From assembly GCA_934045905.1 (NCBI GenBank), contig OW203768.1:12056316-12120315 (forward strand): a stretch of DNA of 64,000 nucleotides, in the 5' to 3' direction. A program made the translations under genes and the position numbers. The stretch is from Leuctra nigra. Lineage: Eukaryota > Arthropoda > Insecta > Plecoptera > Leuctridae. Below are positions 16,822-56,600 of the stretch, one piece after another. The notes beneath the pieces are model-generated. The model worked only from the letters and a program-made list of their open reading frames with translations, was not told the origin of the DNA and did no database searches. The first letter of the stretch is position 1; each line of letters begins with the position of its first letter.

Positions 16822-16935
16822 TTTTGAATCAATATTACCGAATAATTAATAATACTTTTACTTATAACTATTGCAACTTAACCAATAAACGATTCTCCAG
16901 TGGTCTTGACAGCCGACACACACTTGCCGCTTGAA

Positions 16936-26600: not shown

Positions 26601-29600
26601 TTATATGTTTTTAAGTGTATTTTATAAGATGAATAATTGATTTTTTTTTAGGCGGGCTGGGATGGTATTTTTTTATGTATTTGTTAATTGTATTGTACCT
26701 AATTGAGTGTTTATATGTTTTTAAGTGTATTTTATAAGATGAATAATTGATTTTTTTTTAGGCGGGCTGGGATGGTATTTTTTTAATGTATTTGTTAATT
26801 GTATTGTACCTAATTGAGTGTTTATATGTTTTTAAGTGTATTTTTATAAGTTGAGTTGATTTTTTGTTGAGGCGGGCCGGGATGGTATTTTTTTATGTAT
26901 TTGTTAATTGTATTGTATCTTATTGAGTGTTTATATGTTTTTAAGTGTATTTTTATAAGTTGAATTGATTTTTTGTTGAGGCGAGCCGGGATGGTATTTT
27001 TTATGTGTTTGTTAATTGTATTGTACCTAATTGAGTGTTTATTTGTTTTTAAGTGTATTTTATAAGATGAATTGATTTTTTTGTTGAGATTTTTTTTCTC
27101 GGCGAGGGAATGCGAACTCTGCCTTGCTCTGGGCTTCCGAGCGCGTCCCCGGGTTGCGGATAGGGGAACGGCCTACAGGGGTGCAATCACGTAAAACGAC
27201 AACTTTCTTGTCACTGTGACAAGCTTCTTATCAATAGAGACGAGAAGATTGTCACGCGACAAGAAAGTTGTCGTTTTACATGATCGCACCCGAAGTAGGT
27301 TAGCCACGAATAAGGACTTCCAAATAAGTGGTCGCGGACAATTGAGCGGCGGTGCTAGCAGGACGGGGTGACTTGCTTAGCAGGGCAAGTCCGATGTCCA
27401 ATGACGGCATCGTGTCTAAAAACACAGCATTGCTTTTTTTTAGGCGAATAACTGCCATCATAAAACACGGGACACACTGTCAAGTAAAAGTAGAGGGTTG
27501 AATCTACGCATACCTGGGGGGGGCTCAAATTAGTTACATTGCTCGAAAATATGTTTGCTAGGCTCATAGGGGCAAGGCCCCCCGCCCCCCCCCCTCCACC
27601 GTGCGCACTATACAATTATCGGTATTAGACTCATTATTTGCCGTATCACAATTGCAATAGTAAGAAAGAAGAATGGCATTTAAATATCCAACGGATAACA
27701 GCTGTTTGTCTACACTATGGCAATGTACATAAACACACATGTCTTGAACAATTCCCTCAATAATCACGTCTAATTACTGATGTAGCGATGATTAGTACTT
27801 GCGATCAGGGACATGGCTTCCAAGGCCACGATAATCTGCGGCATGTGGCGTAGAGTCGTACATTTCATTCAGAAACGGGCTTAATTCACGTGAGAACGGG
27901 TATAATTACGTGCTAATTCAATATTCACAACCGCAACCTCTGATCAAATTAATTCATAACTACGTGTCAGTGAGTCATAAACAACAAGATTAGGATATGT
28001 CGGAGCTGGAAGGATTCTTCCATCGTGTGAGGTGATCGACAAATGTTTTCATGTCATGCTTCTTCACTTTCGAAGATCTAATCGTAACCTCTCCATGTAT
28101 TTCAAGAATTCGCTTTGTACATCAGCCAAATCACATTAATAATGTCATAAACGCATTGTATTGAAATTCAAAGACATTCTGTTATTTTGAATTCACTTCC
28201 CTTCTTTTGCAAAATCTTATGCACTGGTCTCTTTATTTTATTGCCCCTTGTTTTTGTGATGACGTTTGCCGTGTTGAGCACTCACTGACTGACACAAGTG
28301 CGAATTTATCAAACAAATTCAAATTTCAACGCGTTCTAATATCAGTCTTCGTTTTGTACCAAACGTTCTTTCTTTTTGATTGAATAGTTCCACGTGGTTC
28401 CACTATCGCACAGAAAGGCCTCTTTCGAATACATAATCTTCAAAACATTCTAAAATGTAAATGTTCACTCACTATACTCAACAATGATTGCAACAATCGT
28501 TCAGAAATAGTTTAGAAAGAACCTTTTTACAATTTTGGTGGGAGAGTGTTAAAAAAAGTATGAAAATGAAGTCTGGGAAGAATTATAACTAAATATCCGT
28601 CCTATACTGACCAAAATATACCTCCCCTTATTGTTCTCATTGAAGGTTTGTGCGAATCATCAAATGACACGTGACAAGCTCTTACCGTCTCTAAAGTCGG
28701 ACATGTTGAGGGCGACGTCAGCACCAGGAGTTACTGCCATCTCCGCCTCCGTTGACTGATCGACGAGCTCCTCACTGCCTGCCGTGGAGGCGGTGGTCGT
28801 TTCTGAAACAGAGGCACATTATTGGACGTGTAGAGGGCGACGTCACTACCATCTCCGCCTCCGTCGACTGACCGACGATCTCCTCACTGCCCGCCGTGGA
28901 GGCGGTGGTCGTTTCTGAAACACAGACACATTATTGGACGTGTAGAGGGCGACGTCACTGCCATCTCCGCCTCCGTTGACTGATCGACGACCTCCTCACT
29001 GCCTGCCGTGGAGGCGGTGGTCGTTTCTGAAACAGAGGCACTTTGTGGACGTGTAGAGGGCGACGTCACTGCCATCTCCGCCTCCGTTGACTGATCGATG
29101 ACCTCCTCACTGCCTGCCGAGGAGGCGGTGGTCGTTTCTGAAACACAGACACATTATTGGACGTGTAGAGGGCGACGTCACTGCCATCTCCGCCTCCGTT
29201 GACTGATCGATGACCTCCTCACTGCCTGCCGAGGAGGCGGTGGTCGTTTCTACTACACAGACACATTAGTGGACGTGTAGAGGGCGTTGGAGCCAGGCGT
29301 CGCCTCCCGATGGCTCAACGACCTCTTAAAAAGGCGACAGAGATAAATGAAACAATTACCATGTTTTGTCACTAGAATAATAATATATCTTACAAACTTG
29401 GCTATACACTACAGACATCAATTTAATTAATCAATCAGTACTTGAAATCCATGCTTAAGCCAAATTGAGCCAAAGATTTCAAAGTTTTCAAAGTTTTTAC
29501 TGATAGAATATTTTTGAACCTATAGCCAGGTCAGCAATAATGTGTAGTTATCTGGCATATAATGATATAAAAGTTACGGTGGATAACTCATTGTTTGATT

Positions 29601-32600
29601 AAATTCAACTGTCTCAATTAATTTTGAAGTATTATTGCCTTTTTGTATTTAGCTTAACTTTGTTTAACCAGCCTAAGGATCGAATTCTTTCGATCAACTC
29701 TTGAAATAATCCTCTAATTGAGTCATTTTCAACTCTCCATGATCCATCTGTTTATTTAATCACATCGGCAATTATAAAATCGTGAGCAACGTTGAACAAA
29801 GACAAAGAATCAAGTGATTTTTACAAAACGATAATAACACATTGGAGATGAAAATATATTTCAAGACATTCCTTGTATTGAATTCTAGATAATTGAAGTA
29901 TAATAAGCCATACAAATGACACGGTGTGGTCATCTCGTATCTGACTTGAAAAACTTGTTCTAGAGTTATTAAATGTAGTTCACGACTCTGCCGCAAGGTG
30001 GCAGCTCTTACTAGTAAACCAACTTGAATTGCCTAGTAAAAGTCAACATCACACATACAATTTCAAGTTGGACAATTTCAATTTCTAGCCAATGAAACTG
30101 CAATTTGAGTGAAACTCTGAAATCCAAATGGCTGAAAAATGAGTGTGGGAGTTTGATGGTTTATGAAAAATAATAGAGTACCTACTGTAAGTCACCTATT
30201 TTTAGAATGTGGTATTTTTATAAAAGGACATTACTAATATGTTGAAAAATCACAGTGGATAACAGGGGGTCCGGGGGGCGCAGCCCCCGAGAAAAATTTG
30301 GATCAAGGTCACTTATACCTAGGTGCAATTTTGAATCGCAGCATATCTATAGCTATTTTGGGGAAATATAAATTACAAAATATCCCAAAATTGGTGTAAG
30401 AGGTTTAAGAATAGGTAAATTTATTGAACTCATTACGTTATGCAAGTCCGGGGCGCATAGTCCCGGAAATTTTTGAAATATATGTCAATTCTAATCATTT
30501 TGGAACGTTTTTGATGATCTGTCTATTTTTAAGTGTTTTTTCACATATTATTTTAAATGTGCTTATTTTTCTGGGCAAAACCCTGATTTCGGCCCACCCC
30601 CCCCCGCCCCCCCCTGAATACGCCCTTGTACCACAGCAACCACGGTGATGTACTACCCTTTAAAGTTGAAGCTTATAATATTGCGTCTAACTCGGTAAAA
30701 AAGTCTCTTATTGACAGAGTAAAAAAGAGCACATCAATCTCTTTCAAATCATATAGATTGTCCCTTCGATACTTTACCTGTGAAGAGTGTAGCTTGCGCA
30801 GGAGGCGTCGGATCTGGAATCAAAACCCATCCGTCCGTCGACGGCGTCGGCGTCGTGGTTGTCGACGTCGTCGTCGTCGTCGTCTTAGGCGTCGTCTTAG
30901 GCGCCGTCGTCGTTGTTGACGTTGTCGTCGTCGTCTTGGGCGTCGTCGTCTTCGGCGTCGTCGCTTTTTGTGTCGTCGCTTTGGGCGTCGTTGAGGGAGT
31001 CGCGGTGGTCGCTGTGGACACAATAGACGCTTTAAGAGGGGCAATAACAGAATGAGAACGATGACAATGCCATGAGCGAAAAGTCTTTTGCCAGAGACAT
31101 AATAATCTCAATATTAGGGAAGGTTGCCTATAGATTGGAATAATTGATATTTTTTGTAAGGCCTGGTTTTAAATTAAAACTAATGACATTTTAATGAGTA
31201 TCAAGTATCTAGATAGCTATCAAGTGCTCGAAAGATAACTTTCGTTAGGTGCCAATTTGCTTAATACCTTACAGATCTCACAAAATCTTACAGGACCTTA
31301 CAGACCTGATCTTACAGAATATTAAAATGTGTCCAGTCTAATAGTTGAATGTAACGCAGGAAAGGCGTTGGCTAGAAACATGGCATGTTCTGTTACAAGG
31401 GGTTTTAGAGGGGGTTAGGGATTTTTGAGACAATATAAACAAATTTGGGATTCTGAAATGGCCGCTTTTGCTGCTATCTTTTGTTATTATAACGTGTAAA
31501 ATATAGGAGCCTGTAGAAAATTTTACACATTTTCATCTTCTGTTAACAAGTTCAAGTGTTGTGCATAATTTGGAAATGAAGAGCTCAAAATGCTCTCGTC
31601 TTTTACAAGAAAATCTTGGTATCGGGGGAGGGGGCAAGTACCCCCCCCCCCCCCCCCCCTCACTGACGATGCACTTGAGTAATGAGATACAGATGATGAC
31701 GATGATGATGCAAGGCAGGAAAGTATTATGTTAAAACGACAACGTGTTGGCCCCTAGGTACTTCCATCTTGTTCTAAAGAATGCTGCCTCACTTTTGGGT
31801 TCGTCATTTTTCCATTGAATCGACTTTTTAATTGACTGAATTAATTTAAATTATAATTGCTTCTCGTAATAATAGTCATCTTGAGCTTCTTATTTTCTAG
31901 TTGCAGTGTATAATTCTCTTCTCTGTACGAAGAGAGAAGAATCAGAATCTACATAAATAGGCTCCATTTCTTGGGGTTCACATTTACTTGAAAAATACCA
32001 TTTTACTTCAGTAATTCTTTGCTTTTAAGTGACATTTGGACAACTTCATAGCTGGTTAAACGAATGTATACCCGACGGAATGGAGCCATGTTATGTATAT
32101 TATCTTTCCCCTTCTCTCGTAATTCAATAGTAGCTGGACATAAAAATAAATATTTTTTCCGATTGATTTGACATTTCTTTCACTTTACTCAAAAAATTAG
32201 ACATTTGCGTGAGAATTTACGAAACTCGATTTTATCTAAACGATTTATTGAGTGATATATTATTCAAATTTGATTCTCTGGCCTGAAGAAACAAAGTATC
32301 GACATATAACTCTTCTTTATCTTCTTTCTGACATCTCAGCCATGAAAACAGTCACAATCAGGGAGTATCGAAATTCGTGGCTCACGTACCCAAAATAATT
32401 TTTATTTTGTTAAAAGCCATTACTTTGTTTTGCTAGTTTCTGTCCCAACCCCAAATAATATTTAAGCTAGCAAAAAGATCATCACAAAAACTTAATATAA
32501 CATTTATCATCTACATTTTTTGAAAGTTGTCGATCTTTTATTTTTACGGTTGTTAATTCTTTTCTGTGCTATTCTAGAAGGAAAAAACACAAATACATTG

Positions 32601-35600: not shown

Positions 35601-38600
35601 TGGGGCGCCACCATCGGCGCTGAAACCAGTTTCATCTCGGAGTGACGCTACTACGTGAAGACGTGAACGGGCTGATCTTTATACTATGCTATTACCATGT
35701 TTTACCGGCATATCTTTATGAATATAATTGTTCAGATCGCCATTTATAACGATAAAACACTAAGTTTTAACAAGGTAATATCATGGTAATAGAGTTATTG
35801 GGAGGTATAATGCTTTACCGGTATAAAGTTATGCCGTTTTAAAATTTGAATATCAGATTGGAAGGTTTTGGTCAGGTATCCCACTGTATCTCTCTGGAGA
35901 GAAGGTATTCCCAATTCCATTCTGATGGATTCCGGTCACGGCCATAAGGATTAACATTGCATGGAATCGAATTCCATCAGAATTGGGAATTCAAATGTTC
36001 TATAATAGGGCTCCAGGTCCCTGTATGAAGAACCGAGATCATGTGTAAGAAGACTGTTGTAAGTGAAGAGAGTACGCGATGGTTGTAAGAACAGCAGGAG
36101 TGTTGCATTGTGTTCGTGAGATTGTGGGAGGTCAGATGCAGTTGAATAACGGACTGCTTTTTATGCAAAGCATTTGAAAACGGATTGGAATGTTTTGGTC
36201 GTGACTTGATAAAGCGCGAAATTTTTAAATTTGAAAAACAGACTGGAACCTCCAGAAGTTTTAAACGTGCGATATTTAAACTGACTTCTAGAAGTCTGTG
36301 AATTTTTAAAGTTGAGTTGAACGACTACTAAAAAGACAGCGAAATTTAACTGAAAATATAAGAAAGATTGAAAACAGGTTAAAACTTTGTGACTAAGAGA
36401 GAAGTGGTCTAGTGGTCTAAAAGGCCTAGGTAGTTGTCAACTTTTCCAAGTTTTAAACAATGAAAACACGTGCGGTTTCAAAACGTGACAGCTCAAGAAA
36501 TGACCCCTGGACTTCCACGTAATTTTAACTGAAATGTCTAGGAGTTTAAAATGCTTATCAGAAATGCAAGAAACAAGTTACATTTCACGCTTTTGATCCA
36601 CATTACCACAATTTTGAGAGGATTTCGATCTAAAGTGTAGTAAATCGTATGACAGAGAAATGTTTCACAAGAAGACAAGAGTTTTATTGTTCTCGTGAGA
36701 CTGTAGGAAGTCAAATGCATAACGGACTGCTCGACTTTTTAATTCCGTGCAAACTGTTTTATAACAGTCTAAGAATTTGAAAAACAGATTGGAATGTTTA
36801 GATCAATTATACATAAAAAGCGCGACATTCAAACTTATAATAGAATGATGAAGCAAGACTCTTAAAATGAAAATGATCGAATAATTGAAAATTAAGATTT
36901 TCTAACACAAAATTAACTAGGTATGCAAAAATACGAAAGCTAAATAAATATAACAATATAACTATACAAAACAAACATAATTGTCGATTTCAATCATTCT
37001 TGCGGTGAGCTCAAAAACTAGTAATTTTGTCTTCATCCAATCATATTTTGTAATTGAAACCCAGTAATTTTGAAAGAGAGACTTCAATATAACTGCATAA
37101 TTCTTGACTTCAGTCAAATTGCAATTTATATGGCTATGATTAGGTTAGGTACATGATTCTAAAAGACTGCAAAGCAAAACCGTAAAAATGGACATCGGTC
37201 CTTCTACCTCTAAGATACAGATATGTAGTAGCTACACTCCAGGCCAAAACTTTTGCACGTTTAGATCATGTGAGAGAAAGAATTTCGAGGCCGAAAAATG
37301 TAAAAAAGCACACATTTCTCATGAAATGGAGCCTTTTGTGTGTATTCTACTCCTCTTCTCTCGTGTTTCCGAGTACAGATGTTTAGGGCAGAAGACCGCG
37401 TTCATTTGTGTCTCTAAATTCATGTTCTTGACCCAGTTGAATTGATATTGTAACGGGTTGACATTATTCCACTTGCATTTGCATAGAACTCATATCGTGT
37501 TGACTTCGTACCTTCATTGAAATTCACACCGCATTCTTTCGTTTCACAAGAAACCGTCAGGAAGAATCCAAAGGTGCATATAAAATATACGCGGAACGCA
37601 TAATAACAACGGGTATAAATATGTTGAAACTTTTAAGAGCATTTTATACCAGAACTAAGCCGGATATGAAAATAAACGAAGTTCAAGCATATTGTAACTT
37701 CTGCATGTTGTCTACTGTTTGACTTTTGGTGGATTTCTAAAAACACAATTAATATCCTACAATAAATGGAGCATTTTTTGTGGATTCCATGCTCCTTCGC
37801 CCCTTCAATACCGGCAGTATTGGAAGCTTCTATAATTTTTGATTATTTAACTTGCGTTAAATGTTTCTTTGAGATAAGCACTTAAAATAATAATAAACAA
37901 AATTTCAAATTACCCATTTGTGATTTTAGAAACAATTTGTGTTGTATCAAGTCAACAAGAGCTGAGAAAATAAGTTTTGAACATGAACCTTCCCTTGAGA
38001 TATTTTAAAAAAATAAATGAGCGAATCTTACCCTCATACACTTTCAGAAAGTTTTTATCCATACTTTCACTGCTCTAATAAAAAAACAAAAATTATAATA
38101 TCCAGTCTTCTACCTAACGCCACTAACCTTCAGTCGTCACTACTTTAGGCGTCGTGCTCGCCGCCGTCGCCGCGACGTCGACACTCGTCCACGTCACCAA
38201 TCCCCCGGACGTCGTCGGCTGCTCGACGTCGTTGGGGACCGGCGTCGAGCTGGGGCGCGGCGGCTTCGACGCCGTCGTCTTCACCGGCTTCGGCGTCGTC
38301 TGCGTGATGAGTGACACCGACGCCAGACCGTCGGACGGCGTCGTCGACGGCTTCTTCAGCGGCTTCTTCGTCGGAGGTTTCCTTGTGGTAGTCGTCGTCG
38401 TCGACGTCGTCGCAGGCTTCGGAGCAGAAGTCGGTTTAGGAGTAGTAGTTTTCGACGTGGTCTCAGAGAAAGTCGTGACTAATTTGATTGGTTTCGTCGT
38501 CGATCTCGGCGTCGTAGTCGTCGCTTTAGTCACCTTCGGCGTCGTCGCCAGCGTCGGTTTCGGAGTTGTTTTCGGCGGCTTTACGGACGGCTTGGGTTTC

Positions 38601-41600
38601 ACAGTACTCGACGGCGTCGGTTTCACGGAAACTTTAGTTGGTTTCGTCGTCGCTTCGCTCGGTTTCCCTCCTGCCGACGTCGGCGCCGGTCTGGGGGACG
38701 ACGTCGTCGTCTTGCGGTCCACGTTGACGGTGTTGGCGTTGTCCTCCACCGACTGGAACGTAGACAGCTGGTAATTCATCTCCGTGGTCGTTGGTTCGGT
38801 CACCGGCCGCGTCACTACAGTCGGTTTCTTCGTAATTACTTCATCCTTAATCGGTTTTTTCGTAATCGGCTCGTAGATTAGTGGTTTCTTTGTGATTGGC
38901 TCGTAGATTATAGGTTTCTTAGTGATTTGTGGGTCATCTTTGATTGGTTTCTTTGTGATTGACGACGTCGTGGGTGGTCTCCTGGTGATGACGGGCTCCT
39001 TGACGGGGTCCTTGATGACGGGGTCGTCTTTGAGCGGCGTCTTGGTGACGAACTCGATCTTGGTCATCGACTCTGTCGTGTGGGTCTTCGACGTCGTCGT
39101 CATCTCTGTCGTGATGGGCTGGAACAAACAGATCATGATGTCAGTTGTCTCAACTGCTGACTCTATCCTCATCTCTGACAGCAATTGTACATTACAATGA
39201 TAAGAAGACACTTGTTACACTTTATTTTTTTTCAATTTGTTTACAAATTAGTAAATTGTTGTATGGCAAACTATATTGTGTAAAAATGAAATATTCGTAA
39301 AATGTATTACGATTATCACACCAGTTATCAACAATGCTATTAAGTTTTGTCAAAACAAGATACTGTTGCCTATTTAATTATACCTTCAAATATAATTAGC
39401 TGATAATATGCATGAAATGAGCTCATTCCACTCGAAATACGTATAATTGAAATCAGTATCACAAATTGCGACTAACTAACGTACAGTCGGCTGAAGTAAC
39501 AACAGTTCGGATTCTAAAACAAAACGTCTGCACTTCCTAATTAAACCACTGATACCGGTCCAGTCTTGTACCATCTTGTAGGTACTTTCGGAGCGTGCCT
39601 AATGGAGTATCTTCGGGGCTAAGTGAACAGTTATCCATATCTATCCAATGTCGCTACTTTTACATTGCCCGAGCGTACGCTACATATCTGCTAAACGTAT
39701 CTTATCCACCAAGTATTATCGTCTGCAACGTCGTCACCGGTGAAATGTCATCACCACCTGATTTTGTCCAGTACAAGTTACCCACTGAGTTGCGCTCGTG
39801 TCATTCGTCGTACTGGACGATGATGAAGTCAATACTGAATCAAGTCTGTCTCATTGCATTGTTGGCTGTAAATGGTTCTCCACAAAACTATTACGATGTT
39901 AAAAGTAAGCATTGAAAGCTCTATAGACTCTGGGGTTCCTCAATAATCGATAAGCGATATTTTTTGAACTTTCAAACTGTTCAAGATAGGTGCTTATTTA
40001 TATCTTCTTCGCAGATTCTACCGGGTACACATGCCTCAAAAGCGTCGTAGCATTGGATACGACTGCGAAAGCATTCTGGTATGACTTCGATCACACCTGG
40101 AAAGACATGTTTTTTACCTGCAAACAATACGTGGACGCTTCGTATATTATCTGGGACTACAAGAATCTGACTGAATCCGAGAAGCAGCTATGTGGAGACA
40201 GATTGGTGCCGTACACCGTCCCTTCAGAGCACATGATACTTTATGATGAATGGTTTTTTGTGGTTAGTATGAAACAATAGTCATAAGAGAGTCAACAGGC
40301 CTGGGGTAAGCGAATAGGAAATGCATGGTTCGTCAAAACGTTATTTTGACATTTCTCTTCACGCTAGCAGAATTAAAAAAAAAAAACAGATAGTAACGAC
40401 CCAACGTCTATACAATACTCTCTTATAAAGGTTGATCCGAACGAGGGATTTCAGTGTTCGGAAGTATTCGGCTTTTCCCACTTCGTGACGTCAACACAGC
40501 CGGCAACTGCTTGATAGTCTGTATGCGCTGGCATGTGATTTAGATAGAAATGTCCTACTCCATGACGTCACAGAGTAGGACAAAGCCGAATACTTCCGAG
40601 TACTGAAATCCCTCGATCGGTTCAACCTTTAGAAGAGAGTATTGTATAGACGTTGGTAACGACCCATTACAGACTAAATAATGCCGCAAACTGCAGTACT
40701 TTATGACCTCTGGTACGACCTCAATGTGTTAAATACGATTATGTGGTGCAATATTAAGTCTAATGGACTGTATTAAGCTGTAATGGGTCGTTACTATCTG
40801 ATTTTTTTAAATTCTTTTAGCGTGAAGAGATATTTACGGGACACGTTGAGTGAGTGGTTAACGCTCTGAACTTGTATTCCGGAGGCCCGGGTTCGATTCC
40901 CGCGGCCGTCCTTCCTGACTGGGATTTTTTCGTGGATTTCCCTCAGTCGACAGGCAAATGCTGGGAAGGTACCCTACTAATAGGCCACGACCGCCTCCTT
41001 CCTACCTTCCATACTAACCTACTCTTCACCATCATCTGCCAATCATCATCATAATCATTCATGCGTCGCCATTAGCCTCGCTGCAGAACAGTGCGACGTT
41101 AAGCCCCAGAAATAAAAACTTTTTGACGAACCATGCATATTTCCCGTTCGCTTACCCTTAAATTCTTGGTATAGAATTCCGCATTGAGGACCACAAGTTG
41201 TATGGATATTCACAAACGGCAATTTTTTCAGGGTTCCATTTACAACACGATTGAACCCGATTTCAATGAATCTTATCCAGACTTCGCGGCTGCGATCAAT
41301 ATGACATCTGGTGTCCACGACTTCGTATCACTCAACATTCCTATGTTTCAATGTGTAATATGTAAAAGAGAGGCGAACATACCAAAAACAATTCCTCACA
41401 TTTGGCCACTAGATGAAACTCTATTCGGTTTCAACATCGTCTTCACAAGCAAGGAACCGGCAGGTGACAGTTTTGAGAAAGATGTTCCATTGAAGAACAG
41501 TTTGATTCAAGATCTGGTCAGAGTTTTGTCGGTCATGCCCGCGAACATCCATCTAATACGAGCTTCCATTGAGGAGAACCGGCATGTGGTACATATGAGA

Positions 41601-44600
41601 GTTTTGGAAGAAGTGTTATATTATGACGAGGACACTGCAGTCACGTTTAGACAATTCCTTCTGACCAACTGGTGGACGGCGGGATTCTGCATGCCCGAGA
41701 GTACGATCAACTCCGCTGGTGACACATACACCTGGACCCAAGCTGGACAATGTAAGTGCAACTAAAGATTTTTCTAGAAAGCTAGAAGGTTGTCTTCATT
41801 ATCTAAAACTGCGAATGACCGGACTTCAATCATTTATGGCCAGTTTCTCCACCTCTGGTCAGAATTTCGTATAATCCTCTCGTGAATGATTTTAGTGGAT
41901 TACTTTCACGAATACCTAAACCAGAGAGTTGCAGAATCCGGCCCTAAAAGTATTGTCTTCTTTTAAAAGTATTTTTGCTTTTCATCCTGATTGATTGATT
42001 TTTCTTCAATTCCGACAGAATCTGATTTGTATAGGTAAGAGAATTTCAAGCATCGCAGAGAAGACGCAAGTGACGAGTGAATTAATTTTCTTGCAGATGA
42101 TGTGCAATCCCACGTCGTCCATGAAAGACAGGAGGTCGCTACTCGGAAGTGCGTTTGGAACAATTCTCGAATAGTTCAAGACGCTCAGTGGATTGATGTC
42201 GAGTACTTTGACGTCACTTGGCAGTCGTGCACTTTCAGCGGTGTAGTGGACGATGTTCACTTAACCGCCAATGGTGGTCAGACATACTTCGGGAATGAAG
42301 CGTACCTACCCCTATTGTTATTGTACAGGGCAAATACCAGTGATAGTATGCTAGATCTGACCAAGACAAGTTTCACAATTGAACAATTTTTTCTGGTTTA
42401 TTTTGGAGCTTTATCTTACTCAGCCTATCTCTTGAATATGGCGGACTATGTAATTCACCATGACATTCTAGGAATTATAGAATCTATGTTTGTGAAACTG
42501 AAACTGTTGTCCGGTGACAAACACCTGGCGATGGGATACGGAAACTACAACGCATTGTTCGCGATTAATCTCACGGAGGCGAGAAACCTTGTCGGCGTCG
42601 AGTCTCTCCCAGTGACTACGAATTTCATTAGTGTAGGATTTCAAACTACAAATTCCAGTTTCAATGCAGCAACTGGCACTGACATCAAGATAACCGTCTC
42701 CGAAAATCTTCTCGGAGAAAATTCTCGTGCCATGTTCTCGATTTTCATAGATTCAAATTTCTTACCAGATAGACAGAGTTTTATAGGGAAGAAATACGAA
42801 TATGTCGGGCAAGTAATTCTTGACAACGAAGAGTCTACGACCATTCATTCCGATGACTACATAGACATCTGGATCAACAATACCGATTTACACTATTGTA
42901 ATGCCTACACCTGCATGCAGTACAAGCCGCGTACTTGTGCTTCTTACGATTTCACATCCCAGTCTTGGTCGATACGTCACTGTAAGGCGCTGCGGTCAAC
43001 TCGGAGCGGCCTTGAAGTGTTCCGATGCAGCCATCTTGACCACAACGACCGCACAACCCGCGGGTACTTCAAGGTCTACTTCCACGTCGACACGTTTGCA
43101 GACTACCTCGAACGCAACCCGGACTTCGCTACTGTGATGGTCGTCGATGGGGCCCTTTCCGTTGCCGGGTTGCTGAGCATCTATTTAACGGCAATATTCT
43201 ACAAGGAATGGGCAGAAGACCTCGGTCACAAGATGCTGCTTCACATGGTCACCGCATTGGCAGTGAATCTAGCGCTTGGGTTCGTAAACAATGTTGTCCA
43301 TGTTGATACAACTAGTGTCTGGTGCATTCCACTTGGAGCCATTCGACATTACACCTTCCTCGCGATGTTCTTCTGGATGCTGGTGCTGTCAGGGTTACAG
43401 ATGAAGAGATTGATGACCATCACAGGAGCCAAAGACATCTCGCATCTGTTGTCGAAGGCGTTCGCTTTTGCTTGGGGATTGCCGTTGATACCGGTTGGCA
43501 CGCTTCTGGCGTGGAACACGAGCTTCTACAAGGCGACGGACGACAACAGTGGTTCCTGTTATCCGTCCAAGACAGCGTTCAAGGTCACCGTCCTGGCGCC
43601 TGTGGGATGCATCCTGGTGTTTAACATCATAGTCTACATCCGAGTCGTGATCCATATTTTCGGATGTTTACAGAGATGTAATGATGGACCAGTTATTCAG
43701 CGTCATGGAATTGACGAAACAACGAAGCAGTTGCGTTGCTTGGGAATGAGTATCTTTATATTCTTCTTGTTTGGGTTTAGTTGGTGGTGTGATTTTCTGT
43801 CGGAGTCAAAAGTAATTCACAGTGATTTCTTATATGAATATTTGTTTTTGATTACAGCCTCAACGCACGTTTTTATATTGGCTTTGTTCTTTGTTGTTTT
43901 CGACAAAAAGGTTCGTGATTTTTGGCTTAAGAAAAACAAGAAAAAGTAAAATAAGTAAAATAGTCTTCGTTAGTTTTAATGCATCAGAAAATCATTCTAT
44001 TGTCATCCTTTCGCAATCGTACAAAATGTCTAAATGTTCGTGCAAGTACAACGTTGGCTAGTTGGTGTTGTGGCGTTATGAGCGGTAATCGCGACCAATT
44101 ACTAAAATCATGAGGCTTTAAACACGAACGCAAGAGTGATGGTGTTAAAGTAGAATATAATCACAATGCCTTGAAAATGTTCTCATGTATTGCACACTAA
44201 TATTGACTCTTACAGAAAAACTATTTAAAACTTTTATCGCAAAGAATCATGAATTTCGTTTTAAAAATCTTGTATGTTTCGTTTGCTCTCATTTATAACT
44301 TTTAAACAATTTAATATATACTTTTAGCAATTTATAATCTAAACATTTTGTTAATTATGGTACCTATACAATAAAAAAATATTTTTAAGACATGTTGTAT
44401 TCCAGTGTGATTGGCCCATGTATTTCAGGATAATCATATAATATGTTTTAATATTTTTATAATTATCGAAAGATATATTATCCACACAATGTAATTTGCA
44501 AGACTCGACATTTTTCAATGTTTTGGAAAACGTGGAGTACCAAACGGATTGGCTCTCGAGAAATACGGGCTCGAACCTGGACCATCTAAATGCTGTAAAA

Positions 44601-47600
44601 CCACAATATTATGTCCGATCTCAGAGTTGAAGCACTTACTATTCCTTATAGCTGATGCCTCATTAAAGATTTATACGAAAAATCCTGATCAATACATCGT
44701 CCTTCACGCCTCTCCAAAATCGCAAAGTCAAATCAAGTCGCTTTTTATTTTAAGATTTACGAAATGTTACACATAAAGAAGGGCACCAAATCGTCCCATA
44801 TGTTTTCGCTCCTCAGTCAAATCTTTGAACCATAAGTTCAAAAATTGTGTTTTTATCTGATTTCATGAAAAAGTGCCGTCTTAAAAACGATTCAAAAGAC
44901 CATTTTAATTAGTATATTTTACATTAATTTTTAAAGATAATCTTTCTTTCAGCTATGTTTTCAAAGTTAGCTGCTGGTTGGTTAGGAATGTCCACCTGAT
45001 CATTGACTCTGGTTGTGTTTTGGCGCTGCGAGGGTGTAGTCACGTGCTATCTGTGATCTTGCGGGAGGCGTTAGCGAGGGGCGTTAGCGAGAGGCGTTAG
45101 CGACTGACGCGCACAAGTGTACGGATGATTTGTGTTCTCTCGTGTCACACCCACACTCTATGCGGGTTTCACGAACTCGAATCGGCGCAGTTAGTCATGG
45201 AGAACTTAACCTTACTTCCCCGGGAGGAGAGAAGAGAGTTCAAGAGATTTCGATCGACCGCAGATGGAACGCAATTTGTTGACACCCCTAAACAATTCCA
45301 TTCACAGCGAAGTTACTTATCTCATACGCTAAACAGGAATTTCAATGAGTCCAAGAATTTTAAAAACGATTTAACCTTTTGGTAAGGTAAAACAAAAAGC
45401 GCGAAATTGAGTACTACAAATTAACTTTCTTGTATTTTTATTATAAATGTCCGAAGATAAGTGGCTCGATAAAAAAATTAAATTGACGAAACATTCCATA
45501 TTCAAATAAATTTAAATATTGACGGATTATTAAATTTAAAACAGGAATTTAAGTTGCAAAACTATGGCGAAAATTACATTTGAAATGTAAAAATATACAC
45601 TTATTTTATGCCTATAAGTGGCAGCCAGATACTGAGCACTTTCAAGAATAGTGACTATAGCAATAATATCACCGTCTAATGTTCGTCCTTCATTGTGGTA
45701 ACATGACGTGGTGGGGGGACAAGAGGCGTACATTTACCCCGGATTCAGGACTGATGCTGGACCATAGAGCGTCCCCGAGCCCCGAATCCCGGACCCAAGG
45801 AGGTTATATAACTACAACCTCCTTGATCCTTGACCAGCGAACATAATCCTAGACAGTACCTTGTTGTACGCTGGCTTGCCCGGATGGAAGCCAGGCGGCG
45901 CTGACGGCGGGAACACCGGCAAGTGATTGCTCTCATTGTTGTGCCCTCCGTCGTCGTGGAGTCTGCAGCAGGAGCCGAAGTAGAAGCGATCTATGCAGGT
46001 GCCGAGATGCGTCCCGTTGCTCTTCAGACAGCTGATCGCAAACATGCACACTCCAGACTCTCCAGTCCTTCTGCTGACGCACGGCAGATGCCGGATGTTG
46101 CGACCAGAACCTGGGGACAAAGTCGACACATGAGAACATGCACACTCCAGACTCTCCAGTCCTTCTGCTGACGCACGGCAGATGCCGGATGTTGCGACCA
46201 GAACCTGGGGACAAAGTCGACACATGAGAACATGCACACTCCAGACTCTCCAGTCCTTCTGCTGACGCACGGCAGATGCCGGATGTTGCGACCAGAACCT
46301 GGGGACAAAGTCGACACATGAGAACATGCACACTCCAGACTCTCCAGTCCTTCTGCTGACGCACGGCAGATGCCGGATGTTGCGACCAGAACCTGGGGAC
46401 AAAGTCGACACATGAGAACATGCACACTCCAGACTCTCCAGTCCTTCTGCTGACGCACGGCAGATGCCGGATGTTGCGACCAGAACCTGGGGACAAAGTC
46501 GACACATGAGAACATGCACACTCCAGACTCTCCAGTCCTTCTGCTGACGCACGGCAGATGCCGGATGTTGCGACCAGAACCTGGGGACAAAGTCGACACA
46601 TGAGAACATGCACACTCCAGACTCTCCAGTCCTTCTGCTGACGCACGGCAGATGCCGGATGTTGCGACCAGAACCTGGGGACAAAGTCGACACATGAGAA
46701 CATGCACACTCCAGACTCTCCAGTCCTTCTGCTGACGCACGGCAGATGCCGGATGTTGCGACCAGAACCTGGGGACAAAGTCGACACATGAGAACATGCA
46801 CACTCCAGACTCTCCAGTCCTTCTGCTGACGCACGGCAGATGCCGGATGTTGCGACCAGAACCTGGGGACAAAGTCGACACATGAGAACATGCACACTCC
46901 AGACTCTCCAGTCCTTCTGCTGACGCACGGCAGATGCCGGATGTTGCGACCAGAACCTGGGGACAAAGTCGACACATGAGAACATGCACACTCCAGACTC
47001 TCCAGTCCTTCTGCTGACGCACGGCAGATGCCGGATGTTGCGACCAGAACCTGGGGACAAAGTCGACACATGAGAACATGCACACTCCAGACTCTCCAGT
47101 CCTTCTGCTGACGCACGGCAGATGCCGGATGTTGCGACCAGAACCTGGGGACAAAGTCGACACATGAGAACATGCACACTCCAGACTCTCCAGTCCTTCT
47201 GCTGACGCACGGCAGATGCCGGATGTTGCGACCAGAACCTGGGGACAAAGTCGACACATGAGAACATGCACACTCCAGACTCTCCAGTCCTTCTGCTGAC
47301 GCACGGCAGATGCCGGATGTTGCGACCAGAACCTGGGGACAAAGTCGACACATGAGAACATGCACACTCCAGACTCTCCAGTCCTTCTGCTGACGCACGG
47401 CAGATGCCGGATGTTGCGACCAGAACCTGGGGACAAAGTCGACACATGAGAACATGCACACTCCAGACTCTCCAGTCCTTCTGCTGACGCACGGCAGATG
47501 CCGGATGTTGCGACCAGAACCTGGGGACAAAGTCGACACATGAGAACATGCACACTCCAGACTCTCCAGTCCTTCTGCTGACGCACGGCAGATGCCGGAT

Positions 47601-50600
47601 GTTGCGACCAGAACCTGGGGACAAAGTCGACACATGAGAACATGCACACTCCAGACTCTCCAGTCCTTCTGCTGACGCACGGCAGATGCCGGATGTTGCG
47701 ACCAGAACCTGGGGACAAAGTCGACACATGAGAACATGCACACTCCAGACTCTCCAGTCCTTCTGCTGACGCACGGCAGATGCCGGATGTTGCGACCAGA
47801 ACCTGGGGACAAAGTCGACACATGAGAACATGCACACTCCAGACTCTCCAGTCCTTCTGCTGACGCAAGGCAGATGCCGGATGTTGCGACCAGAACCTGG
47901 GGACAAAGTCGACACATGAGAACATGCACACTCCAGACTCTCCAGTCCTTCTGCTGACGCAAGGCAGATGCCGGATGTTGCGACCAGAACCTGGGGACAA
48001 AGTCGACACATGAGAACATGCACACTCCAGACTCTCCAGTCCTTCTGCTGACGCAAGGCAGATGCCGGATGTTGCGACCAGAACCTGGGGACAAAGTCGA
48101 CACATGAGAACATGCACACTCCAGACTCTCCAGTCCTTCTGCTGACGCACGGCAGATGCCGGATGTTGCGACCAGAACCTGGGGACAAAGTCGACACATG
48201 AGAACATGCACACTCCAGACTCTCCAGTCCTTCTGCTGACGCACGGCAGATGCCGGATGTTGCGACCAGAACCTGGGGACAAAGTCGACACATGAGAACA
48301 TGCACACTCCAGACTCTCCAGTCCTTCTGCTGACGCAAGGCAGATGCCAGATGTTGCGACCAGAACCTGGGGACAAAGGCAATCACTGTCATTCTTCAGA
48401 TTCAAAATTAATTTTCTTTTGGCCTCCAACTCGTCTACATGCGCTCAACTGACAATGCGACCTTTCTGTCTCAATTTCGAGATACTTCGTTCCATTCCTG
48501 CCGTTTACCTCATGCCCGAGTTTCAAGGTACGCTCATACAATAATCCTACCCTTTTCAATGAGAATTTACAGCTGCCACCGATTCTCGCATCTCAACCTC
48601 CATATCCCATATCTTAACCATCATCCTCTTCCAAAAACCTTTCACCCATTGCCCTCTGAACACCATCCATCCCGAGCTCCTCAAACGTCCACGCGTCCTT
48701 CTGTACGGAGGCTTGTATCCTAATATCCTTCTTGGCCACCTCTCTTCCTCCATTCTCCTGACAATATGTCCATACCAAACCAACTGCCTCGTGTCGATTC
48801 TATCCACAATTGTGTTGACAGCAGAGGATGATCTATCTTAGACCCTGTTCGATAGTCAGAGATGGTCCATATCCTAGGGCTTGCAGAGACTAAATAGTAA
48901 GAGAATAGTACTGAGTTGGAGACCAGAGTAAGGAGTTCAACGTATGAAAACCCGTCCATCAATCCAAACAAGAAACTGGAGCCGTCAGTTTATGAAATAG
49001 AAATGTATGTCATTAACATTATATTATTATAGTTTGTCAATAATTAAAAAGTAACGTATGATTCTGTTGTGTTCGACTAAAAGTGTTTTGCCATATATCT
49101 TCGCTTTCATTGAAATTTAGATTTAAAACTAAACATAAATTGGTATTATTCAGCGAAGATAATGTAGGTTTTTTATGTTAAAATATATGTGTCAAAAAGG
49201 TCGCAATTAAAGCTGTTCAAATGCACTTGCCCCAACTATTTAACTAATAAAACAATACGCATCGACGTACTTCTTTATTTGAACAAAATAACATGAAACT
49301 AGCAAAATACATTGGCTTACAACATTTGATAAAATAAATACTGTTTCAAAAGACGAGCATCATATCTAAATTCTGTGTCTTGATTTCTGCCTCCAAGCCT
49401 TGGCAATAGAGTTTCGCTTCTTGGCTTAACCCCTCAATCTCGAGATATGTCAGAGTGGAGCACGACTCGTAGATTTGTCTCACAAACCCAGTTGAAAAGT
49501 GCGCGTTCGGGAATTCGAGATGAAGATGTCGCAGCTGCTTCATGAGATGACTGTGGTGGATGAACAGTTCAACCAACGCAGCTTCAGCTGATCCTGGCAA
49601 GTCTTCTTCTGATTCCTTGAACCCACTCAAACATAACTTCGTCAGTTGAGCTGCGTCTGCCAGACAAAGTCGCGCCAGATACACAACTCTGGATGCGAGA
49701 GTACAATAATGCCGGAGTTTAAGTTTCTCAAGATTTGGGAAAGATATTCTGTTGGTTGGCATTTGGTTTCCCACTTGTTCGCTGAGTTGCCAATCAAATA
49801 TAAATTCAAGTCTTGTTAAATTTTTACACGTTTCGCTGATAGCTTGCAGTATTTCTACCGGGTTGCTCTTTGATATGTGGATTGAAAGGTCTTTGATGTA
49901 GCTTCCTTTACATGCTAGATAATTGATCAACCAGCGCTTGTTGTGATACTGATCGCAGACTAAAGTCAGTCTCGATAATCTTACAGGACTTGCAGAAAGT
50001 ATCCGAAAATAATCTTGTTCTCCCATGCGAGGTATAATACATTCGAGATCTTGTAGATGAGGGCAATGTTCGATGATTAATTGCAGCATTTGCGGTGAAA
50101 CATTATTTAGATCCAAAGTTCTCAGTTGCAGGATTTGATTTGTGTCAAGTCGCCATGCCAGAGCCGCTGGGACGGAATATCTACATCCACGAAGCTCTAG
50201 CAGTTTATGACATGTTTCCAACACCGTTGAGTACGTCTCGGGATATGAACTCCAGACATCCATGATCTGTAACTCCGGACAACATCGACATAACGCAAGA
50301 ATGATACCGTCACAGCAAAAACTGTTGAGCTCGACTTCGACGAGCTTTGACAGGCTGGGTATTTGTTGCAACCAGAAACGAATGTGACTGTCTCTTTGCA
50401 ATCTACAAATCCCATTGTTAAACGAAGCCTCAGAACCAGCTTTCAAATCGTCACTTCCCAAATCTTCTTCATCCGTGTAGGGTGTTATAGCTAACTTCTT
50501 CAAGTTTACATTCTCATGAATGAACATTCCATACAGAATTCTCTCATCAGACATCTCAGTTCGTTCTTCGAGGACTTCGTCAAATAAATCTTCCCAGATT

Positions 50601-53600
50601 GCCGCAGGAATGTTTTCACGAAGAAAGTCTTGTACTTTCTGGACAGTTGCTTTACACCCGTCGAATTCATAGTGTAAGTTTAACCAGCAAGGATAAAGAT
50701 CCTCGATGTTCTTGCATGTAGAGTGTACTAACTGGCTTGTTGCGCTTAGAGCAAACGAAGAGAGAGTTTTTACTGGCTTATGAAGAGGCATTGTCGACTG
50801 TAGAGAGAAGTCACTTCACTTCGAAACTGTTTTAAATATGTTTCTTGCATGAAATTGAGAAACCAAGTTGATCTAAGACAATACACTTGTAGGTACTACA
50901 CTGTTGATGTTGTACACTACCCTGTTGGCAAGTTTGCTTGAATTTAATTGTGTTTTGACAGGAATGGTCCGCTCGTACTGACGCTTGCTTATTTTTTTCC
51001 TAATAACCGATTTCTAAAAGTATCTGAGTGGCTCTGGTTTATGAAATAGTTCATAGATGCAGTTTTGGAAATCAAACAGCAAGTGAAATTTTCTATAAAC
51101 CCCATTTCATTCCATGCTGGAATTTAAATTTCATTCCGTTACACCGTTTTACCCGCAATCGAAATTACTTACACTTATTTTCACTGTTATTTTCCAAAAA
51201 TTCAATTTGCATATACGTCATCATAGCTCTAGATTTTGCGAAGACTGACAGTTGTTCCTGAGGCAATGAGACGTAGACACGCTATTATAATTCAGTCATC
51301 AAAGTTTGTGACAAGATTTACTATTGCCATCACTGTGGTAGATGCGTAAAGATGATAAGAAAATTGTGGTTATTGAGCGAGCTTCACAATGCACTTTCTA
51401 TTTGAGTGTTACCTTTTAATTTTGCACACACGCAGTACGCTCATGTCACAAGTCGACATAATATATTAGCAAATAGGTCGAAAGGGAAAAATTAAATTAT
51501 CATTTTGTCCGATTGATTTCAAAATTTGCATTTTTTTGTCTGGGGCTTAGCGTCGCACTGTTCTGCAGCGAGGCTAATGGCGACGGACAAAATTTGCATG
51601 TTCATTTCATTGGGAACAACATTTTATCAGATTTTACAAATTTTCAGCTAAAAGAGAAATAAATTTGGACCACTAATATGGCTACTTTTTGCGTATAAAA
51701 TTGTTGAATGTAAAACGTTACATATTCGTAAAAAGTTACGAATTCAGGTACGTGGTATTTAAGAAAATTTACAAAAATGAGAACAAACCTCAATTTTATT
51801 AAAATAGTATGGTGTCCTGGGTCCCTATTCTATAAGTTTAAAATTCACAATTCCACTTGAATCCGATTCGGTGCAATGTCAATCCATATGGCCGTGAATC
51901 GGATTCCAGCAGAATCGGAAAAATTTAACTTGTAGAATACAGGGTCCCTGAAGGTATCAAGAAGGTTTTCCCAATTCATTCAGATGGAAACCGGTCACAG
52001 CCATAAGGAAATAAACATTGCATGGAATCAAATTCAAGTGGAATTATAGGAATTTAAAAGTTCTAGAATAGGGCCCCTAAGAAGAGAAGCAACACTTTTA
52101 AGAGGGCTCAACCGATCGAACATTCCAAAATATTTATTTTTTGAAATTACCATCATAAATTACTTTTTAAAAGAATCATAAAATGTCATTTAACTTGCAA
52201 CTCCTGTCCTATAGCGAGGTTTCAATTTATTGCTTTCCGAGAATGAACAAAACTTTAACACATGAGGTATAGGGAAATCATTCTATAACTTTTAAAATAG
52301 CACACGTTGGTATTGTTTTAATTTTTTTTCCTAATAGAATGTCCAACTATCTATCTAGAAATCAGTTTTTTTAAAAGTAAAATTGTAAAAAAGTAAAAAA
52401 GTAGAATTTCAGTAAAATTCAAAACTCAAAAATAGCATGGAAATCGTCATGATTTTGATGGCCTAGATAAGATTACATGTTAAAAATAGGAATTTATAAC
52501 TACAATATCTAAAAATCTAGACACGAGAAGTTGTTCATATTTCACAGTATCGTGTAAACAGTGATTATTGATACCTCTGCCAAAAATAAGATCATTTGGA
52601 AGATGTGACTTAACAATTGTGCTACCTTAACCCTTATGCACCCTAGAAATATATATTTTTTTAAATCGCTAAGTCCCGTTTAAATGTCTGTAAGCTATGA
52701 GGAAGAAAGTTGTCGATCCCATCACCAGCATGGAGTCGTCACAACGAGGTCAGCCGGGTTGAAAGTGTCAAGTTTATTCGGCGGTGTCGAAGCGAAGGTG
52801 TGCCCACCACATGAGCATCTCCCCGGGTAATTACGGTGCTTTCACTAGCCGCCGGCAGCGCCACCCATTGCGCATGAGCAACACTGACCTAATACACCGT
52901 TACGGCGGCCATTGTTCGAGAACAGGGTCCACTTCGGATGATGGGAGTTATATTTAGCGTGCGAGAGTTTTTTTTAAGTCGATTTGGCGATGTTGATTTG
53001 AACTCTTGCTCTTCAGAAATGGAGAGAATGTTCAATAGGACTTGTTCAGTCATGGAAATATATTCGGTAAACGCTCCTTCTCCCTTTCCATGCGTTTACG
53101 CAAGTTTAGGCTCACCCCCGACCCGTAACACTGGCAGGGCTGAAAGGGCGTTTACCGAATATAATTCCATGACTGTACACTCAACAAATGAAAAAACGGT
53201 ATTGAATTAATCGGATTGTCTCGTCTGAAAATGATTTGATCGCACTAACAGAAGTAATTCTTACTTGGCATCTAGCTATTTTAGGTGAGCACTCATTTTA
53301 TTTGTAATTATAGGATCGATTGTCGAAGAACATTAAATTCAAAGCAATCAAAGATATTTACATTAGTACACTTGGCCGAAGTAAAAACAGTATTTGAGCG
53401 AAACAGATTGGCTGCTGGTCAGGTTCCTTGACAATCAATCCTTGTTATTATCAATGAAATCAGTTATCACCTAGGTACTAGAGTTAGTACTACATGTTAG
53501 CTATGCTATACAAGTTAGCATAGGCTTCATGCCATCAAATCCAGCTATGAGCTAATCCGTTTCTTGAGAATACCGTTTTTAATTTGGCCAAGTGTACGTC

Positions 53601-56600
53601 CATATAATTTCATATAAATTATTAAAATATACGCAGTAGAATTGTCAACCAATTTCTTCATTACGTCTTCCACGAATCCGTTCCGGAAAACAATTTGCAC
53701 AGAAGTATTCTAATTAATTCATCACTCTAAAGTTTAAAGAACCGAAATGAAAGAAGGAAAGTTCCGTGATCGATCCGATAACGATTACCAGGTAACCATG
53801 GTAACATAACATGGGACTGACGACAAGACCACATTCTTCAGAACCAGTGCCAGGGGCGTCCAAACCAGCTCTTCGTGCAGTCTAGGGGTGTCCAAATGAC
53901 GCAGTGAAGAACGAAAGTGGATGCAAGTGGATTGGTGGATGTCTGATAAAATTTATTTCTACGGATTTTCCTTTTTTGGTTAAAAATCCATAAAAAGTAA
54001 AAACGTCGAGAGGGACATGCCGGGGTGCGTCTTTCCATACCCTAATCGAGCCCAACTCATTGATTTGAATATTTGCATTTTACGCGCATTTAACGCCGAA
54101 TCTATTCGGTATAACCAAACATTCTATTACTCCCATTCGTAATGAAGCAGCTAAGTAAGGTGTCTCCGAAATATTTGAGGTTTTACTCACGTAATTGTTG
54201 ACAGTTTTAAAGTAAATAGCATTGTTCGGAAAGTAGATTTAAACACTTTATAAGGAGATACACATTTCTGGATAACAAAAATCGGACACTAGACAAAAAT
54301 ACATTTGATTATAAGCAAGGCGAAACAAAATCAGCAGAAGAGGTTTGGTTTAATCAATAATAATAATAATCATGAAAATTAAATTATGACCACATTTTCA
54401 GGTCAACACCATAAGCATACGCAAAAGTACGATGTACCCCAAGTATCTACGTTTGGACTTCGCATTAATACCAACGAATGTTTTGATCAGAATAGATTCT
54501 CTAATATTATCAGCTAGGTTTATTGTAGGTCCAATATACCAATTTAAGATGGTTGTTAATAAGTGTTTTTGTGTTACAAATCAGGTACCAGGTGTTTAGG
54601 TGCTTATGTAACTATACCTAAGGTACTAAGAATTTTCAGAAGGAAGTCTCTTGAATGACGACATAAAATAATTTGAATTGCTAGAAAATATTTTGTTCAG
54701 TTATTTAGTCTCTAAACAGTTGTATTGAGTTGGGCTCGATTAGGGTATGGAAAGACGCTGCCGGCGTCTACCACCATTATAAACTAGGTACTTCCACTAG
54801 AATAAAGATATTTGTTATAATATGATAATTGATAATGAAAGCTTTTCAATAACCAATATCAATTTAAATATAATTTTTTGAAATCCTATTTCTGAAGTCC
54901 ACAAAGGGAGTGCCAACTGCAAATTGAAAAGATTTAACAACCTCTGAGATTCGATCCCATGGTTTATTCTTGAGAAACAAAATACATGGAAAATTGTTGT
55001 AGGTTTCTTTCAAGGTTCCAAAGCCATGATTATGACACGATATTTTTGATATTACCGATAGTACAGACATTTAACTTTCGATTATCGATGTTTATATTGA
55101 TATTATATTCGTTAGACATACTTATAACCAAAGATTGAGTTTTCTGAGGAGCACATTCCTCTTCTTTCACATACTGGTATAAAGATCGAGGTCCTTCATG
55201 GCGAAGTGGTGCACAATGTTTCCAAACATTCTTACCCTTATTGCCCACCCTTAATGATAATGACCACAAGGGCGAAGAATCATCCGAGAAGGAAAACACC
55301 GTGTGAGAGCGACAAAGCCTCGCGCTAACCTTGAACCTCGACTTCCTGATCACGTGCTCTGGGTGGGTACCGTTACCTGGTGACCGGGATCCCCCCTGCC
55401 CCCCCCCCCCCCCCCCCCCCCGGTTCAGGTGCCGCCGCACGACACTTCCTAGGTGCTCTAGATGCGTGCGGGGGCGGTGCCGTGATGATTCAGACACGGC
55501 GGGTGAAAGTGTGTCGTTTCAACAGACACGGACACAGTGCGTGATCGTGGTTCCACGGGATTTACATGGTCACCAGGTGTGATCGTGGTTCCACGGGATT
55601 TACATGGTCACCAGGTGTGATCGTGGTTCCACGGGATTTACATGACCACCAGGTGTGATCGTGGTTTCACGGGATTTACATGACCACCAGGTGTGATCGT
55701 GGTTCTACGGGATTTACATGGTCACCGGGTGTGATCGTGGTTCCACGGGATTTACATGGTCGCCATGCAAGATCGTGGTTTCACGGGATTTACATGACCA
55801 CCAGGTGTGATCGTGGTTCCACGGGATTTACATGGTCACAGTGCGTGATCGTGGTTTCACGGGATTTACCATGGTCACCAGGTGTAATCGTGGTTTCACG
55901 GGATTTACATGGTCACAGTGCGTGATCGTGGTTTCACGGGATTTTAACACATACCAGGTGTGATTGTGGTTTCACGGGATTTTAACAGATACCAGGTGTG
56001 ATCGTGGTTTCACGGCATTTACATGGTCACCGGGTGTGATTGTGGTTTCACGGGATTTGTATTAGAGTGTAGGCTCCACTTGTGAGTATGTAATATAGAG
56101 AAGGGAGGAGAGGAAACCCGGTACCGGCATGAAGCCTACTCCTGACGAAAGATACCAAGGGGGCCAACGGCGTCCCATCGGAAGGACGGACGGTGTAACA
56201 ATTACAGCACGGGCCTCCACAACCCGCGCCGTCGAGAGACTGATAACAGGTGGAGGGAGGTCGTCACACTAACCCCCAAACATCCCAGTCTCTCTGGCCC
56301 AACGACAGCAACCTGGCAAGGCAGAGTTGAACGGTCACCCATCCAACTACTGACCCCATGCGAGATTGTGGTTTTTATTTTTTAAGTGCGTCTTAAATAA
56401 ACACACAATTCAGAGATGTCAGAAAGAGAAGAGCACTCTGAAAGGCCGGGCTGAAAGGATCTTGACTCAGATGTAACCTTGGATAACCTCAGTCGAGTGG
56501 CAAGCAAATGATGGGAAGGTTCCTCACTGTAATATGCCGCGATCGCATCTTCCTCACCATCCACTCTCACCTGCCTTCATCTTTATCATCATCATCATCT

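Follow-up and report, generated by a model that had tools for sequence, protein, structure and literature searches.

The window analysed here, 64,000 nt of the Leuctra nigra genome (Plecoptera; assembly GCA_934045905.1, contig OW203768.1, positions 12,056,316 to 12,120,315 of the forward strand), contains on its minus strand a serine protease gene of ten coding exons that runs from 58428 to 17664 in positions of the window. At the boundary between intron 1 and coding exon 2 of this gene lies a tandem array in which each 94-nt unit carries a 3′ splice acceptor and the start of the exon. An earlier note on this DNA had described a 25-fold amplification of acceptor and exon start at an exact 94-nt period, with acceptors from 46110 to 48366, and both Tandem Repeats Finder (TRF) and exact counts bore this out. 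The gene and its repeats are laid out as follows.

58332–58428, minus strand: coding exon 1, hydrophobic N-terminus, ends in phase 1, donor GAG/GTGAGT
46041–48378, minus strand: 94 bp × 25 array, unit made of the CTTTGTCCCCAG acceptor, the exon 2 start and a linker
48367–48378, minus strand: distal (outermost) acceptor CTTTGTCCCCAG, without linker
46111–46134, minus strand: putative proximal 3′ splice-site module (linker with CTCAT, pyrimidine tract, CAG)
45860–46110, minus strand: coding exon 2 from the proximal acceptor, 251 nt, six-cysteine knot, donor AAG/GTACTG
38128–39118, minus strand: coding exon 3, Thr/Pro-rich stalk
30778–31011, minus strand: coding exon 4, Thr-rich stalk
28733–29286, minus strand: second acceptor-spanning array, 112 bp × 5, 93% matches, at the acceptor of coding exon 5
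28686–28802, minus strand: coding exon 5 from the proximal acceptor of the second array
17664–22700, minus strand: protease-domain exons (22700–22624, around 20849–20751 with the His motif, 19401–19132, 18555–18400 and 17823–17664)

The protease gene and its exon 1–exon 2 junction

The gene encodes, in order, a hydrophobic N-terminus, a six-cysteine knot, a Thr/Pro stalk and a trypsin domain; for the Drosophila protein Np, a type II membrane topology is described in PMC6331135. When the exons were joined, with the His exon left out, they matched Pfam Trypsin with an E value of 1.3e-46, and the His exon was located at 20849–20751, completing the trypsin-type His, Asp and Ser motifs. Because the exons for all three are present and close to their homologues, the gene looks functional, and the host is apparently an intact insect Notopleural/stubble-like serine protease. 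The protease identity given in the earlier note is upheld by the Pfam match, the His exon and the homologue alignment.

The N-terminal region is conserved as well. With residues 1–118 as query, 209 of 328 candidate proteins matched at E ≤ 1e-3, and among the best 120 of these 209 matches, which are those listed, two termites and a cockroach lead; the best-scoring match is 76% identical over 67% of the 118 residues, and shorter stretches reach 85%. This search and the alignment recovered both the knot and the junction sequence. The two termite and one cockroach proteins (P0001–P0003, 3 of the 12 aligned homologues) read across the exon 1–exon 2 junction with exactly the residues encoded from acceptor 46110, as the earlier note had placed it, and a planthopper protein (P0044) is nearly the same there, the other eight being different or fragmentary at this point.

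No Pfam family was found for the knot (45860–46110), though an alignment of 42 sequences shows it to be invariant along much of its length. A structure model built from these 42 sequences has a mean predicted local distance difference test score (pLDDT) of 73, with blocks for residues 11–50 averaging 89–93, and shows strands at 8–11 and 18–22, a helix and then two further strands. The repeated 70 nt of exon 2 reach only the second strand and include 2 of the 6 cysteines; extra copies of the unit would therefore be partial knot domains.

Anatomy of the 94-bp array

TRF reported a single array at 46041–48378 with a period of 94, 24.9 copies, 99% matches and 0% indels. The acceptor CTTTGTCCCCAG occurs exactly on the minus strand 25 times, all 24 spacings being exactly 94 nt, and the first exon bases that follow it step by 94 nt from 46110 to 48366. 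Within the window, the core TTTGTCCCCAG does not occur outside the array on either strand. The array itself is far beyond chance. Each unit consists of the 12-nt acceptor CTTTGTCCCCAG, 70 nt of the exon 2 start and a 12-nt linker, CTCATGTGTCGA, which is exact at all 24 inter-unit positions; the earlier note had the acceptor and the 70 exon nucleotides right and left the linker unmentioned. The outermost acceptor has no linker and is preceded by unique sequence instead.

Over the 82 nt that the copies share (acceptor plus 70 exon nt), 21 of the 25 are identical, three adjacent copies (starting at 48096, 48002 and 47908) have one change in common, and the outermost copy (48378) has two. Because the copies are near-identical and all spacings exact, their number is likely to have expanded recently. 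Repeats this uniform are also of the type that assemblers miscount, and the real locus could have few units, the array being an assembly artefact or its copy number wrong. We find this very doubtful: the variant copies are ordered, with two changes in the outermost and one shared by three neighbours, unlike simple error, and the surrounding gene is coherent.

The units carry more than an acceptor dinucleotide. Branch-point motifs were judged by consensus only. At the inner acceptors examined, the linker contributes CTCAT, a full match to yUnAy whose A lies 20 nt from the exon, and 11 of 16 nucleotides are pyrimidines. With this branch-point-like motif supplied by the linker, each inner unit has the appearance of a complete 3′ splice-site module. 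At the distal acceptor the one full yUnAy match, TTAAT, is 41 nt off with two AGs between, and the nearer candidates are partial.

The junction reads CCCCAG/GTTCTG, and new introns are known to arise by tandem duplication (PMC4974935); each unit could be removed as a mini-intron, or the array could be removed stepwise by recursive splicing at CAG/GT. We hold either to be extremely improbable, because the unit is without a good donor. With a donor scoring matrix, CAG/GTTCTG scores 0.1 and the best donor in the unit 1.54 bits, a value matched or exceeded by 1002 of the 3677 minus-strand GTs of the window, whereas the six donors of the gene that were scored reach 4.72–11.2 bits. Intron gain by tandem duplication, which takes a donor from inside the duplicated segment, was rejected as a candidate on these scores (1.54 against 4.72–11.2 bits).

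About 230 nt upstream of the outermost unit, at 48606–48837 (minus strand), a peptide resembles by eye the C-terminal end of a reverse transcriptase, with no Pfam confirmation. Intron 1 of the protease gene also contains a 489-residue open reading frame (ORF) at 49346–50815 (minus strand), for which no Pfam family was found.

Reading frames and acceptor choice

Given that exon 1 ends in phase 1, frame is kept by the acceptors that lie k = 0, 3, ... 24 units from the proximal one (9/25). The other 16 meet a stop after the array, either 73 nt (k = 1) or 164 nt (k = 2) before the end of exon 2; distances were computed for these two values and the remaining 14 follow by period. From the distal acceptor the frame is open throughout and adds 752 residues, as eight 94-residue super-repeats with 8 cysteines each. 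Translation thus confirmed the frame arithmetic of the earlier note, namely that steps of 3n units stay in frame and that the distal frame has 752 extra residues and no stop. How much this openness means is another matter. The 82 nt of exon and acceptor are stop-free in all frames; dinucleotide shuffles of the unit were open in all frames in 3.6% of 5000 cases, and with the exon and acceptor letters fixed, 34% of 20000 randomly drawn 12-nt linkers left the array open. Because a random linker stays open about a third of the time, the open frame is weakly informative and only mildly beyond chance.

The geometry of the locus bears on which acceptor is used. The flanking introns measure around 10–12 kb and 6.7 kb, provided that no exon has been overlooked, and exon 2 would have a length of 251 + 94k nt. 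According to the exon-centric proximity rule concluded in PMC9225289, long flanking introns favour the sites that lie nearest each other across the exon, although for human 3′ sites of comparable strength in long introns the paper's text states a significantly reduced upstream preference before it draws this conclusion. With the intron lengths found here and exons of that size, this rule favours the proximal acceptor, 46110, which lies nearest the downstream donor. Proximal choice is further supported because the junction formed at 46110 is the one present in the termite and cockroach proteins.

The second array points the same way. It is more diverged than the 94-bp array and its outermost acceptor reads TAGTAG; only its proximal acceptor (28802) is open, all four upstream choices running into a stop. 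Because it is open from the proximal acceptor only, it too supports proximal choice, and it suggests that the gene tolerates an acceptor-spanning array when the proximal acceptor is used or exon 5 is skipped. TRF found four arrays with units of at least 90 bp in the gene span, and two of them straddle acceptors, which hints that intron–exon boundaries may be prone to such expansion. The chance that at least two arrays straddle an acceptor is 0.0035 when founding-unit lengths are placed at random and 0.10 with full array lengths, for 8 acceptors (the His-exon acceptor was left out) and a pattern noticed after the fact. Introns of the protease gene contain further tandem arrays at 26474–27088 (110 bp × 5.7), 23077–23459 (192 bp × 2) and 55541–56058 (38 bp × 13.6).

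We judge it moderately likely that the 94-bp array is a young minisatellite, born of a boundary duplication in an intact gene and spliced mainly at its proximal site. It would have started as a tandem duplication over the intron 1/exon 2 boundary of the Notopleural/stubble-like protease gene and grown, recently, through copy-number gain. Most functional mRNAs would use acceptor 46110, nearest the exon 2 donor, and the array would mostly leave as intron. Low-level splicing to acceptors a few units upstream may also occur, those at 3n units giving an in-frame spacer and the others leading to the stops near the end of exon 2; the latter transcripts would probably be degraded, and such putative frame filtering by RNA surveillance is possible, as is some in-frame use of the distal site.

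Several points weigh against proximal splicing of a drifting repeat. The distal acceptor is the first to be transcribed, and when Reed and Maniatis made 3′ sites compete across an intron, the upstream one won (as related in PMC9225289). The distal acceptor also has pyrimidines at 11 of 16 positions; the exon 2 donor, at 4.72 bits, is the weakest of the six scored, which weakens exon definition; exon 5 is phase 1-1 and can be skipped in frame, so that the second array is no strict proof of proximal choice; and an open frame together with 24 units, a multiple of three, is something that plain drift gives only sometimes.

Some of these points favour instead the distal acceptor 48366 as the main one, with a protein that carries the 752 extra residues before its knot: the frame is open over a multiple of three units, and the site transcribed first is the upstream one that an intron-centric proximity rule picks (PMC9225289). 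We regard this as distinctly unlikely. The exon would be 2507 nt long between long introns, the added protein would have 8 cysteines per 94 residues in unfamiliar sequence, and the outermost copy changes R to W at a position that is invariant in the 42 aligned sequences. Nor was an array-bearing protein listed in three protein searches. The proximal-form search (328 candidates) listed none, under length limits that exclude proteins as long as the distal form; a shortened distal form matched 23 proteins among 3420 candidates, none with query coverage above 25%; and a 132-residue piece of the array matched a single protein out of 171 candidates, a stubble protein of a cricket, with 21% coverage. 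As negative evidence this is weak, because the set seems not to contain the protein of the species itself. The distal use put forward in the earlier note gained no support.

A further alternative spreads splicing over several acceptors, with about two-thirds of the products out of frame and destroyed, so that copy number would act as a rheostat of protease output or spacer length. The inner acceptors are near-identical, each with a branch-point-like motif, and the frames divide accordingly, 9 of 25 in frame and 16 running into a stop that lies 73 or 164 nt short of the exon 2 end. We nevertheless think this unlikely, since exon-centric proximity predicts a proximal bias and the copies are too alike to show selection. 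Its extension, a heritable rheostat in a gene that acquired such an array twice, with each gain or loss of 94 nt changing the amount of a conserved morphogenetic protease or its N-terminal spacing, strikes us as quite improbable. Acceptor choice is throughout inferred from sequence rather than read from transcripts, which counts against the rheostat and also against the proximal choice that we favour.

Relation to known boundary repeats

Repeats that span exon–intron boundaries have been described before, and this array is an extreme variant. In the potato RdRp gene, a duplicated segment takes in the branch site, the pyrimidine tract and the 3′ site at the end of an intron together with the first part of the exon that follows (Ma, Lan and Niu 2016, PMC4974935). 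The present array resembles it in that here, too, the tandem repeat spans the boundary, and the unit holds a pyrimidine tract, a 3′ site, the exon start and, by consensus only, a branch site. The potato duplication, however, gave rise to a new intron whose donor was taken from exonic sequence, whereas here there are 25 copies, the unit has no good donor and no new intron is evident.

Minisatellites at exon–intron boundaries are also reported from human duplicated genes, with units of 30 bp on average repeated four times (PMC2812944). Those repeats lie in recent paralogues and alter splicing patterns, being kept or spliced out, with transcript support; the present ones, seen in DNA alone, are 94 bp × 25 in a conserved insect gene that has two arrays. 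NAGNAG tandem acceptors share with the array the adjacency of alternative acceptors of near-equal strength, but lie within a few nucleotides of each other, and the choice between them falls at the second step, after a single definition (PMC9225289), whereas the acceptors here are 94 nt apart, with branch-point-like motifs of their own. What sets the array apart from these known cases is its number of copies, the completeness of its unit, the absence of a donor and its recurrence within a single conserved gene. Searches of open-licence PMC papers brought up boundary repeats and intron gain by tandem duplication, and no array with as many acceptors was among the hits listed.

The locus is an instance of a minisatellite placed right at a splice junction in a conserved gene. 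Its 25 near-identical candidate 3′ splice-site modules, 24 of which share one branch-point-like linker, would compete for a single donor between long introns, a natural test in an animal of upstream-first against exon-centric proximity rules; if copy number varies, individuals would form a dosage series.

Other features of the window include a secretin-family receptor ORF at 42081–43949 (Pfam 7tm_2, E 2.6e-11), on the plus strand and thus opposite to the protease gene within its intron 2. AT-rich simple arrays of ATCGAT type, with long repetitive ORFs, lie near the protease His exon at 19835–20129 and 20406–20724. A 947-residue ORF at 6536–9379 (minus strand) combines endonuclease and reverse transcriptase, as in an element of the non-long-terminal-repeat (non-LTR) type. 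An ORF at 15532–16845 (minus strand) matches SHNi-TPR (Pfam E 1.1e-10) and is presumably a NASP-like histone chaperone.

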